Shown: positions 42,157-46,501 of the stretch, in pieces
How positions within the stretch are numbered: position 1 is the stretch's first letter
Layout of the letters: every line of letters begins with the position of its first letter
Assembly: GCA_902558435.1 (NCBI GenBank)
Contig: CACEDU010000001.1
Location: forward strand, 230,919 to 294,918
From: an uncultured Pelagibacteraceae bacterium
Lineage (GTDB): Bacteria > Pseudomonadota > Alphaproteobacteria > Pelagibacterales > Pelagibacteraceae
DNA length: 64,000 bases
Direction of reading: 5' to 3'
Notes under the pieces: model-generated
What the model was told of the DNA's origin: nothing
Databases searched by the model: none
Seen by the model: only the letters and a program-made list of their open reading frames with translations
Position numbers and translations under genes: made by a program

Positions 42157-43203
42157 GTGGCAGAGATAAAAACAAAAAGAGAAAGAGTAAAATTTGCATC
42201 AGATAATGTAACTGGTGCTTGTCCAGAGGTTTTGGATGCAATTCTTAAAGCTAATGATGAAGATAGAACTCCTTACGGTAATGATGATCTGTCTAAAAAT
42301 TTGCAAAATAAATTTTCAGAAATCTTTGAAAAAGAAGTAATAGTTTTTCCAACAGCCTCAGGAACAGCTGCGAATGCTTTAGCTTTATCAACTCTGACAC
42401 CATCTTTTGGAAATATATACTGTCACAGACTTTCCCATATTAATGTAGATGAATGTGGAGCACCTGAATTTTATACTGGAGGAGCAAAGTTGGTTAATCT
42501 TGATGGGATTAATGGTAAGATTATTCCTGAAGAGTTAGATAATAGCATATCTGGCACAGGAATTGTTCATCACACTCAGCCTTCATCAGTTAGCATTACA
42601 CAACTTTGTGAAACAGGTGTAGCTTATCAATTAGATGAAATAAAAAAAATATCAGAAGTTGCACATAAACATAAGCTAAATATCCATATGGATGGCGCTA
42701 GATTTGCAAATGCATTAGTTTCATTAAACTGTTCTCCAGCAGACATGACTTGGAAATCTGGTATTGATGTTCTCTCATTCGGTGCTACTAAAAATGGATG
42801 TTTTGCAGCCGAGGCAATTATTTTTTTTAATCAAGACTTAGTAGGTAACTTACCTTTTTTAATGAAACGAGCAGGTCATTTGCTATCAAAAATGCGTTTT
42901 GTATCCGCACAGTTAGATGCCTATATATCAAACGAAGTTTGGTTAAAAAATGCAAAACATGCGAATGCTATGGGGAAAAAACTAAGCCAAGGCTTGCTGA
43001 AACACAAAAATATTGAATTAGCTTACCCAACAGATGCAAATGAGGTTTTCGTTAAAATACCAAAAAATATTATTGATCAATTTAATTCAAATGGTTACAA
43101 AATTAATGATGAAGAATGGGAGAATAAAGCAGTTAGGTTGGTAGCCGCATGGAACACAGACTCATCTGATGTTGATTCATTTTTAAATATAATTAAATCT
43201 TAA
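42157..43203 (+). CDS. Low-specificity threonine aldolase-like PLP enzyme
   Basis: FASDNVTGACPEVLDAI, YGNDDLSKNLQNKFSEIF, NIHMDGARFANALVSL, SFGATKNGCFAAEAIIFF; GTG start. Confidence 0.92.
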   Translation: MAEIKTKRERVKFASDNVTGACPEVLDAILKANDEDRTPYGNDDLSKNLQNKFSEIFEKEVIVFPTASGTAANALALSTLTPSFGNIYCHRLSHINVDECGAPEFYTGGAKLVNLDGINGKIIPEELDNSISGTGIVHHTQPSSVSITQLCETGVAYQLDEIKKISEVAHKHKLNIHMDGARFANALVSLNCSPADMTWKSGIDVLSFGATKNGCFAAEAIIFFNQDLVGNLPFLMKRAGHLLSKMRFVSAQLDAYISNEVWLKNAKHANAMGKKLSQGLLKHKNIELAYPTDANEVFVKIPKNIIDQFNSNGYKINDEEWENKAVRLVAAWNTDSSDVDSFLNIIKS

Positions 43204-43204
43204 T

Positions 43205-43432
43205 TTAACTAGGATTTTCTCTTAGAAAGTGAATATATTTTACTACTTCATCAAATTTTTCATCCTCAATATCTTTATAACTTGCACTAAACTTACTCTT
43301 TACACAAATTGCAACATGAGCATAGGGGTTTCGCCCTTTTGGATGATTAGGATGGTCAGGAAGTTGTCCTTGTAAATAATCGCCAGCTTCCTGAATAATT
43401 TTCCAGAGTTTACTTGCGTTTTCTTTGTTCAA
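43205..43432 (-). CDS. Conserved-looking small hypothetical protein
   Basis: 75-aa ORF (MNKENASKLWKIIQEAGDYLQGQLPDHPNHPKGRNPYAHVAICVKSKF...) with coding-like composition. Confidence 0.6.
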   Translation of the reverse strand: MNKENASKLWKIIQEAGDYLQGQLPDHPNHPKGRNPYAHVAICVKSKFSASYKDIEDEKFDEVVKYIHFLRENPS

Positions 43433-43460
43433 ACTACTTCAATCCTTGTTTTATCTCTTC

Positions 43461-43482
43461 ATTATCGAGTTATTATCGAGTT
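43461..43482. repeat. Perfect 11-bp tandem repeat (ATTATCGAGTT x2)
   Basis: Two identical adjacent copies 29 bp upstream of the 43432 start. Confidence 0.85.
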
Positions 43483-43533
43483 ATCATATAAAATCCTATA
43501 ACACTGAATTATGATCCTTAAAAGTTTTTTCAT
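43462..43533 (-). pseudogene. Possible remnant of a gene start (23 codons) resembling the start of the neighbouring alginate-lyase-like gene
   Basis: ATGAAAAAACTTTTAAGGATCATAATTC versus ATGAAAAAACTTTTAGGGATCGTGGTTC at 44779; translation MKKLLRIIIQCYRILYDNSIITR*. Confidence 0.4.
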
Positions 43534-43534
43534 T

Positions 43535-44779
43535 TTATTTCGTAATTAACATTGGGTGCAATGTAAAAACTCTAGAAGGCTCAGATTTAATTTTTGGTAA
43601 ATATTTATTATTATAGGTATCGTTATATTTTTTTAAAACTACATCTGAATTTTTATAATCTGGAAATTTACTTACATACACCATCAAATAAGTTGAAGAT
43701 TTTATAAAACTTTTTGAAGGTTTTTCAATTGATCCCCATCGATCACCTCCACCTGGACACGAGATTGCATAGATTTGATTTGTTTTAGAGGGATCCATTA
43801 TGCCTTTGATTACAAAATCTGCCCCGTTATGTAGACTTCGATCATCTACATTATATTTAAATAAATCTTGTTCTGTAGTATCCTTTAAAAGAGATGCCAT
43901 CATTAATAGATATCCATAACTATCAGCATTATATTTTAATCCCATACCACTTCTTTGAGTATCAATAGGAAAACTACCGTCTGGTCTCATATCATTAATG
44001 GCAAGCTTAACCACATCAATTGAATGCTGGACAGCTTTCAAATCATTGATCATTAATCCCCAAATCATTGTAATATAAGAAGTTAGATAAGCTTTATTAT
44101 CTTGCCTATCCTTCCATCTACTTTTAGCAACTTTTTTTACTAAATTATTTAACCAAGGTCCTAAAATTTTTCTTTCCTCTGCATCTAACTTGTCAGCGAT
44201 AACAGCTGTAGTTGTTAAGATTGAATTTATTAGTACCATCATTTGCCAATCCACAGGTTTTTTACCCCAAGAAACATTGATACCTTTTCTTAAAGCATCT
44301 TTTTGAGCCCAATCTAATAATACCGCTTTAATTTTATTGATGTTTTCTTCATTATTGCTAGCTCTTCCTGCATATGCTGCCTCTTGAAAATAATTCATTG
44401 CAAAATTAGCTTCTTCTAATTCTTCACCGTAACTTTCATCTAATTTTATTTTCTCAAGTGGTTTTGGTGCTCTACTTAAACTTATCTTATGTTTGTCTTC
44501 ATCAGACAGTTTATAAAAGGGAGTAATCCATTTTTTTTTAATGAAATAATCTTCTTTTTGTTTAGTTAATTTATATCCAAAACCTTCGCCATAAGTTGGG
44601 TGTTCAAAACACTCTTTTGCTTTGCTGAAAGCATTCCATAAAGCTTTTGTTTTGCTTTTTGATAAAACCTTTTTAGGTTTAGAAGTTAAGTCTAGATCTT
44701 CATAACTATTTATCGTTTTGGAAAAAGCACTCCCGCTCCACAACAAAACCAGAACCACGATCCCTAAAAGTTTTTTCAT
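43535..44779 (-). CDS. Secreted alginate-lyase-family (alpha-helical toroid) protein
   Basis: Signal peptide MKKLLGIVVLVLLWSGSAFS; helical-rich NFAMNYFQEAAYAGR, DNKAYLTSYITMIWGLMIND, DMRPDGSFPIDTQRSGMGLKYNADSYGYLLMMASLL as in the Alginate_lyase (PF05426-type) fold. Confidence 0.75.
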   Translation of the reverse strand: MKKLLGIVVLVLLWSGSAFSKTINSYEDLDLTSKPKKVLSKSKTKALWNAFSKAKECFEHPTYGEGFGYKLTKQKEDYFIKKKWITPFYKLSDEDKHKISLSRAPKPLEKIKLDESYGEELEEANFAMNYFQEAAYAGRASNNEENINKIKAVLLDWAQKDALRKGINVSWGKKPVDWQMMVLINSILTTTAVIADKLDAEERKILGPWLNNLVKKVAKSRWKDRQDNKAYLTSYITMIWGLMINDLKAVQHSIDVVKLAINDMRPDGSFPIDTQRSGMGLKYNADSYGYLLMMASLLKDTTEQDLFKYNVDDRSLHNGADFVIKGIMDPSKTNQIYAISCPGGGDRWGSIEKPSKSFIKSSTYLMVYVSKFPDYKNSDVVLKKYNDTYNNKYLPKIKSEPSRVFTLHPMLITK

Positions 44780-44789
44780 AAACATATTT

Positions 44790-45752
44790 CTAATTATTTA
44801 GTTTAATTTCAGGAAGTGGTTTTTTCCATTTAATTGATTTAGTAATTTTTTTTCCATAAGTAGGCATTCTATAGCTACTTTTTCTGTATCTTACATAAGA
44901 AATGGACTCTTTGCTTTCAGATGTATAAGAACATTTTTCTTGATTTAAGATTTCCTCACACTTATCACTGAAACCAAATTCTTTTACTGTTAAAGATTGT
45001 GAGGGAGTTTCATTTAAAAACGCATCTTTTAGCCATCTATAAAATCCCCATTTAAATGTATATCCATTACCTATGGTAAAGTTTGGACCATATACCTCAA
45101 AAACTTTCTTGTCATCAACCCATGCTATTATTTCTCCATTATCATCTTTTGATGCTAAAATTTTGAAACTGATTGTTCTGTAATTTTTAAATTGATCTAC
45201 AGATCCTAGGGGAAATTTATACGACACCTTATCAAAATTAGAATTTTCTGGATCTCCTTTTAAATAGAAAACCTCCTTGGTAAAATTTACTTGATGAACA
45301 ATTCTGTCTCCAGAAAATTGTAATTTCATCCATGGTAAAAGTCTTGAAGTACCTTTATTAGCAATAACTTGAAACAAGCTTCCACCTACAGCAGGGTGTG
45401 TAGGGAAATCGTTCAATTTAAAAGTATATTTTATATATACAGGTTTCTTAAATTTTCTTGGTTTTTTTTTATTTGCTGTTTCCCATCTCTGATTTCTTTC
45501 ACCAGTTCTTTCCCAGTCATTTTTGTGTCCTTTAAATTTTGTATCAAGCGTGATTTTAATTGCTTTACCATCTGAATCTTCAAAAATAGATAGTGCTTTT
45601 TTTTTAGATATCGACCTTGTATCATTTTTCATCTCTGACTTTGCCTTACCAATTAAAACTTCTTTTTTTAAAAATTTGTAAGGGTTTTCAGATGCATGTG
45701 TATTTGTGGAAAATATAAATAAAACAAAAAAAATTAATAAAAGTTTTTTCAT
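44790..45752 (-). CDS. Secreted polysaccharide-lyase-like (beta jelly-roll, glucuronan/heparin-lyase-like) protein
   Basis: Signal peptide; ERTGERNQRWE, YIKYTFKLNDFP, GSLFQVIAN, WMKLQFSGDRIVHQV, EIIAWVDDKKVFEVYGPN, YTFKWGFYRWL pattern of Polysacc_lyase-type jelly rolls. Confidence 0.65.
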   Translation of the reverse strand: MKKLLLIFFVLFIFSTNTHASENPYKFLKKEVLIGKAKSEMKNDTRSISKKKALSIFEDSDGKAIKITLDTKFKGHKNDWERTGERNQRWETANKKKPRKFKKPVYIKYTFKLNDFPTHPAVGGSLFQVIANKGTSRLLPWMKLQFSGDRIVHQVNFTKEVFYLKGDPENSNFDKVSYKFPLGSVDQFKNYRTISFKILASKDDNGEIIAWVDDKKVFEVYGPNFTIGNGYTFKWGFYRWLKDAFLNETPSQSLTVKEFGFSDKCEEILNQEKCSYTSESKESISYVRYRKSSYRMPTYGKKITKSIKWKKPLPEIKLNN

Positions 45753-45886
45753 TATCCAAGATTAACAAATCATGAACCATGAGTCTATTTGCTTAAAAAA
45801 TGGCTATTTGATTTATCTCAAAAGTCTCTAGTCTGGACACTAGTTTGTTACTTAAATTGATAAGTCTGCAAGCGAATTATTTTTAT

Positions 45887-46009
45887 TTAAAATCCACCAC
45901 GCCAATTGTTTTTAGATTTCAAATCTTTCTCCTCTAGTTTTGAAGTAGGTCTAAATAAATAAAAACTTATGACAACAATAACGAATATACCCAAAATGAT
46001 TTCAATCAT
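45887..46009 (-). CDS. Small single-TM protein (40 aa; absent from the ORF track)
   Basis: Reverse-complement translation: MIEIILGIFVIVVISFYLFRPTSKLEEKDLKSKNNWRGGF*; one hydrophobic helix plus charged tail. Confidence 0.6.
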   Translation of the reverse strand: MIEIILGIFVIVVISFYLFRPTSKLEEKDLKSKNNWRGGF

Positions 46010-46015
46010 ATTTGA

Positions 46016-46501
46016 TTAATCTCTAAAGTTTATAAATTCAATTGGAAGTCCTATATCAATTTCTTGTATAGCAGATATTGCTTCTTGAAGGTCATCTCTT
46101 TTTTTTCCTTGAGCTCTTAATTCTTCTCCTTGAATTTTAATTTGGATTTTAAGTTTTAGTTTTTTTACATCAGCAATAATCTTCTTAGCATTTTCTTGAC
46201 TAATGCCCTCTGCTAATTCACTGACTTGTCTGATGGTTCCACCAGCTGCACCTTCTGAATTTTTAACGATTATTACTCTTGGATCTACTTTTCTTCTTAT
46301 AAGATGAACTTGTAGCAATTCATTTACTTGTTTTAATTTCAATTCATCTGGCGCTATTGTAGTTATTATTTTATCTTTTCTCTCAATTGAAATATTAAGT
46401 CCCTTAAAATCATATCGGTTAGTAATTTCTCTTAAACAATTTGCTAGAGCATTATCAAATTCTTGATAATTAATTTTACTTATTACATCAAATGAAGGCA
46501 T
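46016..46501 (-). CDS. YajQ-family (DUF520) nucleotide-binding protein
   Basis: MPSFDVISKINYQEFDNALANCLREITNRYDFKG; IKIQGEELRAQGKKRDDLQEAI. Confidence 0.97.
   Translation of the reverse strand: MPSFDVISKINYQEFDNALANCLREITNRYDFKGLNISIERKDKIITTIAPDELKLKQVNELLQVHLIRRKVDPRVIIVKNSEGAAGGTIRQVSELAEGISQENAKKIIADVKKLKLKIQIKIQGEELRAQGKKRDDLQEAISAIQEIDIGLPIEFINFRD

Follow-up and report, generated by a model that had tools for sequence, protein, structure and literature searches.

Why should a very small marine genome hold two adjacent genes for exported proteins that resemble polysaccharide lyases, and how did these genes come to stand side by side? The question arises from a 64,000-nucleotide stretch of DNA (the window) that belongs to a genome of the Candidatus Pelagibacter lineage, here called G000 (1.32 Mb in 28 contigs, 91% complete). 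The two open reading frames concerned are:

43535..44785, minus strand: P0001, predicted exported PL5-like (alpha/alpha) toroid protein, 416 aa (PF05426, Foldseek, profile search)
44790..45752, minus strand: P0002, predicted exported jelly-roll polysaccharide-lyase-like protein, 320 aa (PF14099, Foldseek, family profile)

A first-pass annotation of this DNA had described two neighboring signal-peptide genes that resemble an alginate-lyase-type toroid and a jelly-roll lyase, and our data bear this description out. Both N-termini are typical of Sec signal peptides as judged by eye, the likely true start of P0001 being the ATG at 44779 (MKKLLGIVVL...), and both proteins score above the Pfam cut-offs (P0001 with 62.1 bits for Alginate_lyase PF05426, cut-off 22.2; P0002 with 46 bits for Polysacc_lyase PF14099, cut-off 29.9). 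Structural models, for which sequences of the window and of related loci were aligned, agree with these assignments in that they predict a toroid with PL5 matches for P0001 and a jelly-roll with a PL20 enzyme as first match for P0002. We are thus highly confident that both predicted proteins, whose orthologues in other genomes show about 80-100% identity, have lyase folds.

The P0001 model (mean pLDDT 76.6) has PL5 structures, including A1-III, Smlt1473, AlgL and PanPL, as its Foldseek matches 1-24, with an E-value of 1.7e-8 for A1-III (1qaz) and a TMt of 0.73 for Smlt1473 (7fi2). Identity to Smlt1473 is about 18% in the structural alignment, and a profile of the P0001 clade finds this enzyme at 6.5e-18. 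In Smlt1473, residues N167, H168 and Y222 are catalytic, R215 aids carboxylate neutralization, and the H168A mutant is inactive (PMC8511899). P0001 shares with the PL5 lyases the fold, the Pfam family and the aligned Asn, Arg and Tyr, since its conserved N230, R278 and Y285 align with N167, R215 and Y222, but it differs at the catalytic His, the position of which is occupied by Lys231 (N-K instead of N-H) throughout the P0001 clade. Of the Tyr, His and Asn that the first-pass annotation had named as catalytic residues, Asn and Tyr are consequently present, together with Arg, whereas His is replaced. A total loss of lyase residues in P0001 was ruled out, as Asn, Arg and Tyr are retained. Because the catalytic His is a Lys, we describe P0001 as PL5-like without assigning it to PL5, and its activity is not assured: the exchange could signal altered or lost catalysis. 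All P0001 orthologues have the Lys, as do the relatives from a SUP05 single-cell genome (65% identity) and from Roseibium (44%), so that the substitution looks selected rather than decayed, and on balance we lean slightly towards P0001 being active as a polyuronate lyase. The His-to-Lys clade, which also occurs in SUP05 and Rhodobacterales-type relatives, poses an enzymology question of its own. In the SUP05 single-cell genome (L111:1638-5479), the P0001-type domain is part of a 716-aa protein that adjoins an FG-GAP-repeat protein, and the two have their N-terminal segment in common.

The P0002 model is weaker than that of P0001 (mean pLDDT 67.7). Its first Foldseek match is the PL20 glucuronan lyase TrGL (2zzj, 3e-9), followed by PL7 alginate lyases, and the P0002-family profile finds 2zzj at 7.8e-11. 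P0002 has the jelly-roll fold and Pfam family in common with TrGL and other jelly-roll lyases (PF14099, PL7, PL13). Identity to 2zzj is 13% in the structural alignment. A Q-x-I-A-N stretch of P0002 aligns with TrGL; the Arg, Gln and Tyr positions are kept, the Tyr being conserved. P0002 reads Q-V-I at a place where Q-x-H or Q-x-K is found in many Pelagibacter paralogues. A loss of the catalytic His in P0002, as this difference from Q-x-H might be read, was dropped as a candidate, because the glucuronan lyase has Q-F-I at this place. An iterative PF14099 profile drifted onto shared signal peptides, and its weak matches were excluded. Whether P0002 is an active enzyme seems to us a nearly balanced matter, with doubt slightly prevailing.

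If catalytic, P0001 and P0002 would probably beta-eliminate a uronic-acid polymer, either within the periplasm or immediately outside it. Depending on pH, Smlt1473 acts on polyglucuronate, hyaluronan and alginates (PMC8511899), and because polyglucuronate is cleaved by both of the nearest characterized relatives, Smlt1473 and TrGL, our best guess for the substrate of both proteins would be a glucuronate-rich polymer. Extracellular polysaccharide degradation had been thought unexpected for a small oligotroph genome. This picture is incomplete, as lyase-family genes are not exceptional in the group: of 101 relatives searched, 30 have PF14099 and 13 have PF05426.

What the cell might gain from these proteins can be approached through their neighborhoods. 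The lyase-family genes of relatives are often clustered with sulfatase, GH10-like and esterase-like genes, some clusters additionally including a TRAP subunit and a ROK kinase, and this would fit carbon acquisition, in which dissolved algal polyuronates are degraded and the products taken up. We regard this use as possible but doubtful. The failure to detect KDPG aldolase (PF01081) in G000, which like the other genomes is incomplete (91% complete), weakens the case for feeding on lyase products, and the site itself holds no transporter. None of the genes adjacent to the lyase genes is a TonB, SusCD or recognized sugar transporter gene, as had been noted before: the neighbors in the window are EamA permeases, an amidinotransferase-like gene, a Beta_elim_lyase gene, YajQ (DUF520), a 2-hydroxyacid dehydrogenase and an MFS permease.

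In several relatives, DUF1800, DUF1501, GT2 and PMT_2 genes lie next to lyase clusters, and PF14099 is present in 9 of the 11 genomes with DUF1800 (Fisher p 0.016). Together with the His-to-Lys exchange in P0001, this could mean that the target of the proteins is a glycan of the cell itself, at its surface or in its periplasm, in the manner of AlgL-like clearing, or that they are non-catalytic binders, a tentative reading to which we likewise give a low probability. The lyase genes of the window lie ~50 kb from the DUF1800/DUF1501 locus, which is lyase-free in G000, and the conservation of the Lys across phyla speaks against simple decay.

Lyase-family genes also occur at other places in these genomes. 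One variable genomic site on the umuDC / recA side (L046, L047, L048, L049, L105, L107) holds several of them, with GH10-like, sulfatase, esterase-like, DUF1800, DUF1501, GT2 and PMT_2 genes in different genomes; at this site, G000 has DUF1800 and DUF1501 and no lyase. The second PF14099 gene of G000, which also carries an export signal, lies within the histidine operon between hisH and hisA (L054:7514-8398, G000:C4), and an exported PF14099-family gene is found between hisH and hisA in G047 as well (L028:1267-2151).

The two lyase genes of the window are enclosed by the following conserved flanks:

42157..43203, plus strand: Beta_elim_lyase / threonine-aldolase-type gene (PF01212, 192.6 bits)
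43205..43432, minus strand: conserved 75-aa gene, marker of the threonine-aldolase-side flank
45887..46009, minus strand: conserved 40-aa ORF on the yajQ side, at the stop codon of which homology blocks often stop
46016..46501, minus strand: yajQ (DUF520) (PF04461, 180.1 bits)

We compared 11 versions of this threonine-aldolase–yajQ site and found conserved flanks and variable gene content, ranging from almost empty (G047) to at least five genes (AG-911-J19, G044). The site thus shows what defines a flexible genomic island, i.e., variable content between conserved flanks in close relatives. No credible RNA element was found in this hotspot, the one match to a miRNA model lying far below the gathering score. 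The P0001 gene is 99.2-99.9% identical in the single-cell genomes AG-911-J19, AG-911-K05 and AG-899-C17 and 98.9-99.7% identical in AG-896-P03 (two contig pieces), and yet its upstream neighbor changes: it is P0002 in G000, a 304-aa lyase in AG-911-J19 and AG-911-K05 and a 160-aa gene in AG-899-C17, while AG-896-P03 has a region with the tandem-repeat motif described below and no intervening gene. Four upstream contexts of a near-identical P0001 imply that the P0001-P0002 pair is one of several combinations. Moreover, the orthologues occur apart in relatives, the P0001 type in G041 and the P0002 type in G047, G044 and G048. The earlier view of a functional pair is not sustained by these observations, and a P0001-P0002 operon is ruled out by the changing neighbors of near-identical P0001 copies. 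Accessory cargo, which had been offered as one option, describes the genes well: they sit in a variable hotspot in which neighbors are exchanged between genomes, and that both are accessory cargo is almost certain.

How, then, is this cargo exchanged? The gene of P0001 lies between two copies of a 32-42 bp DNA element, here called the leader, that codes for an export signal (MKKLLGIVVLGLLW):

44738..44779, minus strand: leader copy 1, ATGAAAAAACTTTTAGGGATCGTGGTTCTGGTTTTGTTGTGG, encoding the P0001 signal peptide; 5' cassette edge; 1 mismatch to the 32-mer
43502..43533, minus strand: leader copy 2, an orphan stub 1 bp past the P0001 stop; 3' cassette edge; 6 mismatches in 32

P0001 accordingly begins with ATGAAAAAACTTTTAGGGATCGTGGTTCTGG..., and P0002 carries just the first 15 bp of the leader. 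A search with the 32-mer allowing up to 3 mismatches gave 46 matches in 27 of the 101 genomes, all from the same genus, and none in 40 genomes of other genera or for a reversed control; the genome-wide leader statistics in G000 are those of a pattern search. Over all loci, we counted 54 distinct leader copies, 36 of which head genes while 18 are orphans that head no gene of at least 45 codons. The mature parts of the 36 leader-headed genes fall into 24 unrelated clusters and comprise lyases, alpha/beta hydrolases and lipoprotein-like genes.

The conservation of the leader exceeds what a common peptide would require. Its consensus codon string has a probability of 3e-9 under the codon usage of the window. 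Twenty leaders found by their peptide, in loci that the DNA pattern had not fetched and some of which were chosen with the leader in mind, show 4.05 deviations from the consensus over 42 bases, compared to 12.2 expected for the same peptides, and the minimum in 2,000 runs of a codon simulation for these peptides was 10.5 differences. A likeness merely at the protein level is ruled out by this simulation. The leader peptide MKKLLGIVVLGL was not found printed in the open-licence papers searched, nor did this literature, where it deals with SAR11 and lyases or signal peptides, yield a description of it.

Identity between genomes is bounded by the leader copies. G000 and AG-911-J19 differ at 1 position over 1,293 bp, from leader copy 1 to 15 bp past copy 2, and this 99.9%-identity block ends 15 bp beyond the stub (site 3016, window position 43487). 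Outside the cassette, identity is 80-88% just beyond and about 94% in the wider flanks, and the upstream sequence is unrelated. The homology blocks to AG-911-J19, AG-911-K05 and AG-899-C17 start 3-9 bp upstream of leader copy 1, and a block shared by G000 and G031 (site 610-765) stops 15 bp after the coding sequence of P0002 begins. Three further cassettes behave similarly: a 308-aa lyase cassette (G055 vs G001; block -2..+949, 96.9%, next leader at +923), a 279-aa hydrolase cassette (G004 vs G031; block 0..+867, 93.1%, next leader at +839) and a 292-aa lyase cassette (G004 vs G025; block 0..+880, 87.3%, next leader at +880 in G004), with the block end inside the next leader for two of the three. 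The leader itself has been replaced as well. P0001 of the window and its orthologues at other sites are identical at 58% of leader bases and 90-93% of body bases, whereas these orthologues among themselves show 81-97% leader identity and similar body identity; the P0001 leader was thus exchanged.

A different explanation would be that leader DNA is kept for a role at the mRNA or translation level and that the edges coincide with it because genes exchange at gene boundaries. The leader is indeed coding, with uncommon codons, 34 of 52 leaders abut an upstream stop codon as in tightly packed genes, and exchange at leaderless gene edges is common, with 109 block edges observed at leaderless gene ends compared to 20 expected. 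Such a role would not account for the 18 of 54 copies without a gene, for downstream block edges at or within the next leader, or for leaders that differ between orthologues with 90% identical bodies. In addition, the share of leaders that coincide with a block edge is about four times that of other gene starts at the same loci (26 of 56 vs 48 of 426; Fisher p 2e-9 for leader-bearing loci, which were partly chosen for carrying leaders and in which genome pairs are related and not independent). We therefore consider a purely mRNA- or translation-level role unlikely. Since edges are common at leaderless gene ends, the leader would be a favored edge and not the sole one, and that it is a favored recombination edge is a conclusion we hold as probable.

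We propose that P0001 and P0002 are exchangeable exported cargo in a hotspot and that the leader-flanked cassette is exchanged by recombination between leaders, which we consider fairly likely. The P0001 gene would be a cassette between two direct leader copies, and recombination between leader copies would replace or add the mature-protein part, while the upstream region and the signal peptide stay. As the resident promoter side and signal peptide would be retained, new cargo could be exported at once. Orphan leaders could be end copies or scars. The leader-gene-leader-gene-leader layout, the orphan end copies and the leader-bounded identity fit recombination between leader repeats. Neither a recombination intermediate nor a circular cassette was seen. 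The pathway would most likely be ordinary homologous recombination, with either incoming or resident DNA as its substrate, which we prefer because no dedicated recombinase was found: most relatives, including G055 with its 10 leader copies, show one Xer-sized gene.

Alternatively, a phage- or satellite-encoded tyrosine integrase might use the leader or the tandem-repeat motif as attachment site. This is an option because, on an IMG/VR contig classed as viral (L128:286-2273), a tyrosine-recombinase-like ORF follows a perfect leader at a distance of 284 bp, and some leaders lie near tRNA-Leu or tRNA-Thr, with one stub adjoining a truncated tRNA-Leu copy. We judge it quite unlikely, as the single recombinase of G055 is Xer-sized (325 aa) like that of most relatives, none was detected in G044 despite 3 leader copies, the hotspot of the window has neither integrase nor tRNA, and the viral contig carries one leader copy only. 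A single exact IMG/VR match with one copy is insufficient for claiming a phage-borne leader as attachment site. In G010:C6 (L137:11327-14233), two exported genes, one of them of the PL5-like group, lie between an intact and a truncated tRNA-Leu; the truncated copy adjoins an orphan leader, and no integrase is nearby.

The tandem-repeat motif, a 10-11-bp tandem repeat followed by GAGATAA, occurs behind many orphan leaders and upstream of P0002, and it was absent from reversed controls. The hotspot has two copies:

43451..43481, minus strand: tandem-repeat motif ACTCGATAATAACTCGATAAT...GAGATAA, behind the stub
45813..45844, minus strand: tandem-repeat motif copy 2, ACTAGTGTCCAGACTAGAGAC...GAGATAA, upstream of P0002

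Copy 2 lies within a resident upstream region common to other genomes. The two repeats of a pair share the same variant bases (ACTNGANACNNACTNGANAC) in 21 cases, including L077, L080, L087, L090 and L104, where the search pattern itself required one matching base. A near-identical C-terminal tail (EYIAIVKNKLDDKVLIKVRTDSKEQAIE...) on different proteins, which overlaps the start of the next gene (L049:10080-10155, L046:10180-10251, L069:4862-5110), may be another module edge. In G035:C5 (L144:326-8492), an island between tRNA-Leu and tRNA-Thr holds several interspersed type IV pilin-like genes, the N-termini of which are nearly identical (GFTLIELLVVVAIIGILAAVGVVAYNGYT), and adjoins a leader-headed lipoprotein gene.

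SAR11 bacteria, whose genomes are very small, rank among the most abundant cells of the ocean, and marine Pelagibacter are documented to exchange genes (PMC12416821). Leader-bounded cassettes suggest how such cells may trade secreted proteins. An evenly poised further step would be to assume that bacteria of the Pelagibacter lineage exchange exported proteins through a general cassette system, in which a coding signal-peptide leader serves as recombination edge without a dedicated integrase and unrelated lyases, hydrolases and lipoproteins are traded across lineages and sites. If this were true, a repeat serving as export signal and recombination edge alike would allow SAR11 to gain secreted enzymes singly, in frame and with immediate export, which would explain the changing set of polysaccharide-active enzymes in a streamlined genome. 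With leader cassettes, the single-cell genomes that already exist can also serve to test gene turnover at defined sites.

The open-licence literature yielded no account of cassettes whose edge is a coding signal-peptide repeat, and several known systems show partial likeness. Integron cassettes are gene-sized, have variable cargo and are bounded by a repeated DNA element, the 3' attC. Leader cassettes have gene size, bounding repeats and variable cargo in common with them, but the leader repeat lies at the 5' coding end, and no integron integrase was found in the hotspot, with the 325-aa Xer-sized gene as the only recombinase of leader-rich G055. Tycheposons exchange cargo at fixed sites in marine oligotrophs (PMC10872708). 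The hotspot shares this fixed-site exchange but is not a tycheposon, as the window contains 0 tRNA genes and no recombinase, tyrosine recombinases included, lies between the flanks. Additive flexible genomic islands with tRNA-tail repeats were described in the streamlined aquatic Ca. Methylopumilus (PMC10872708), and there, as here, short direct repeats precede the added genes and content varies at a fixed site. The repeat of these islands is a tRNA end, whereas the leader is itself coding and supplies the signal peptide of its cargo.
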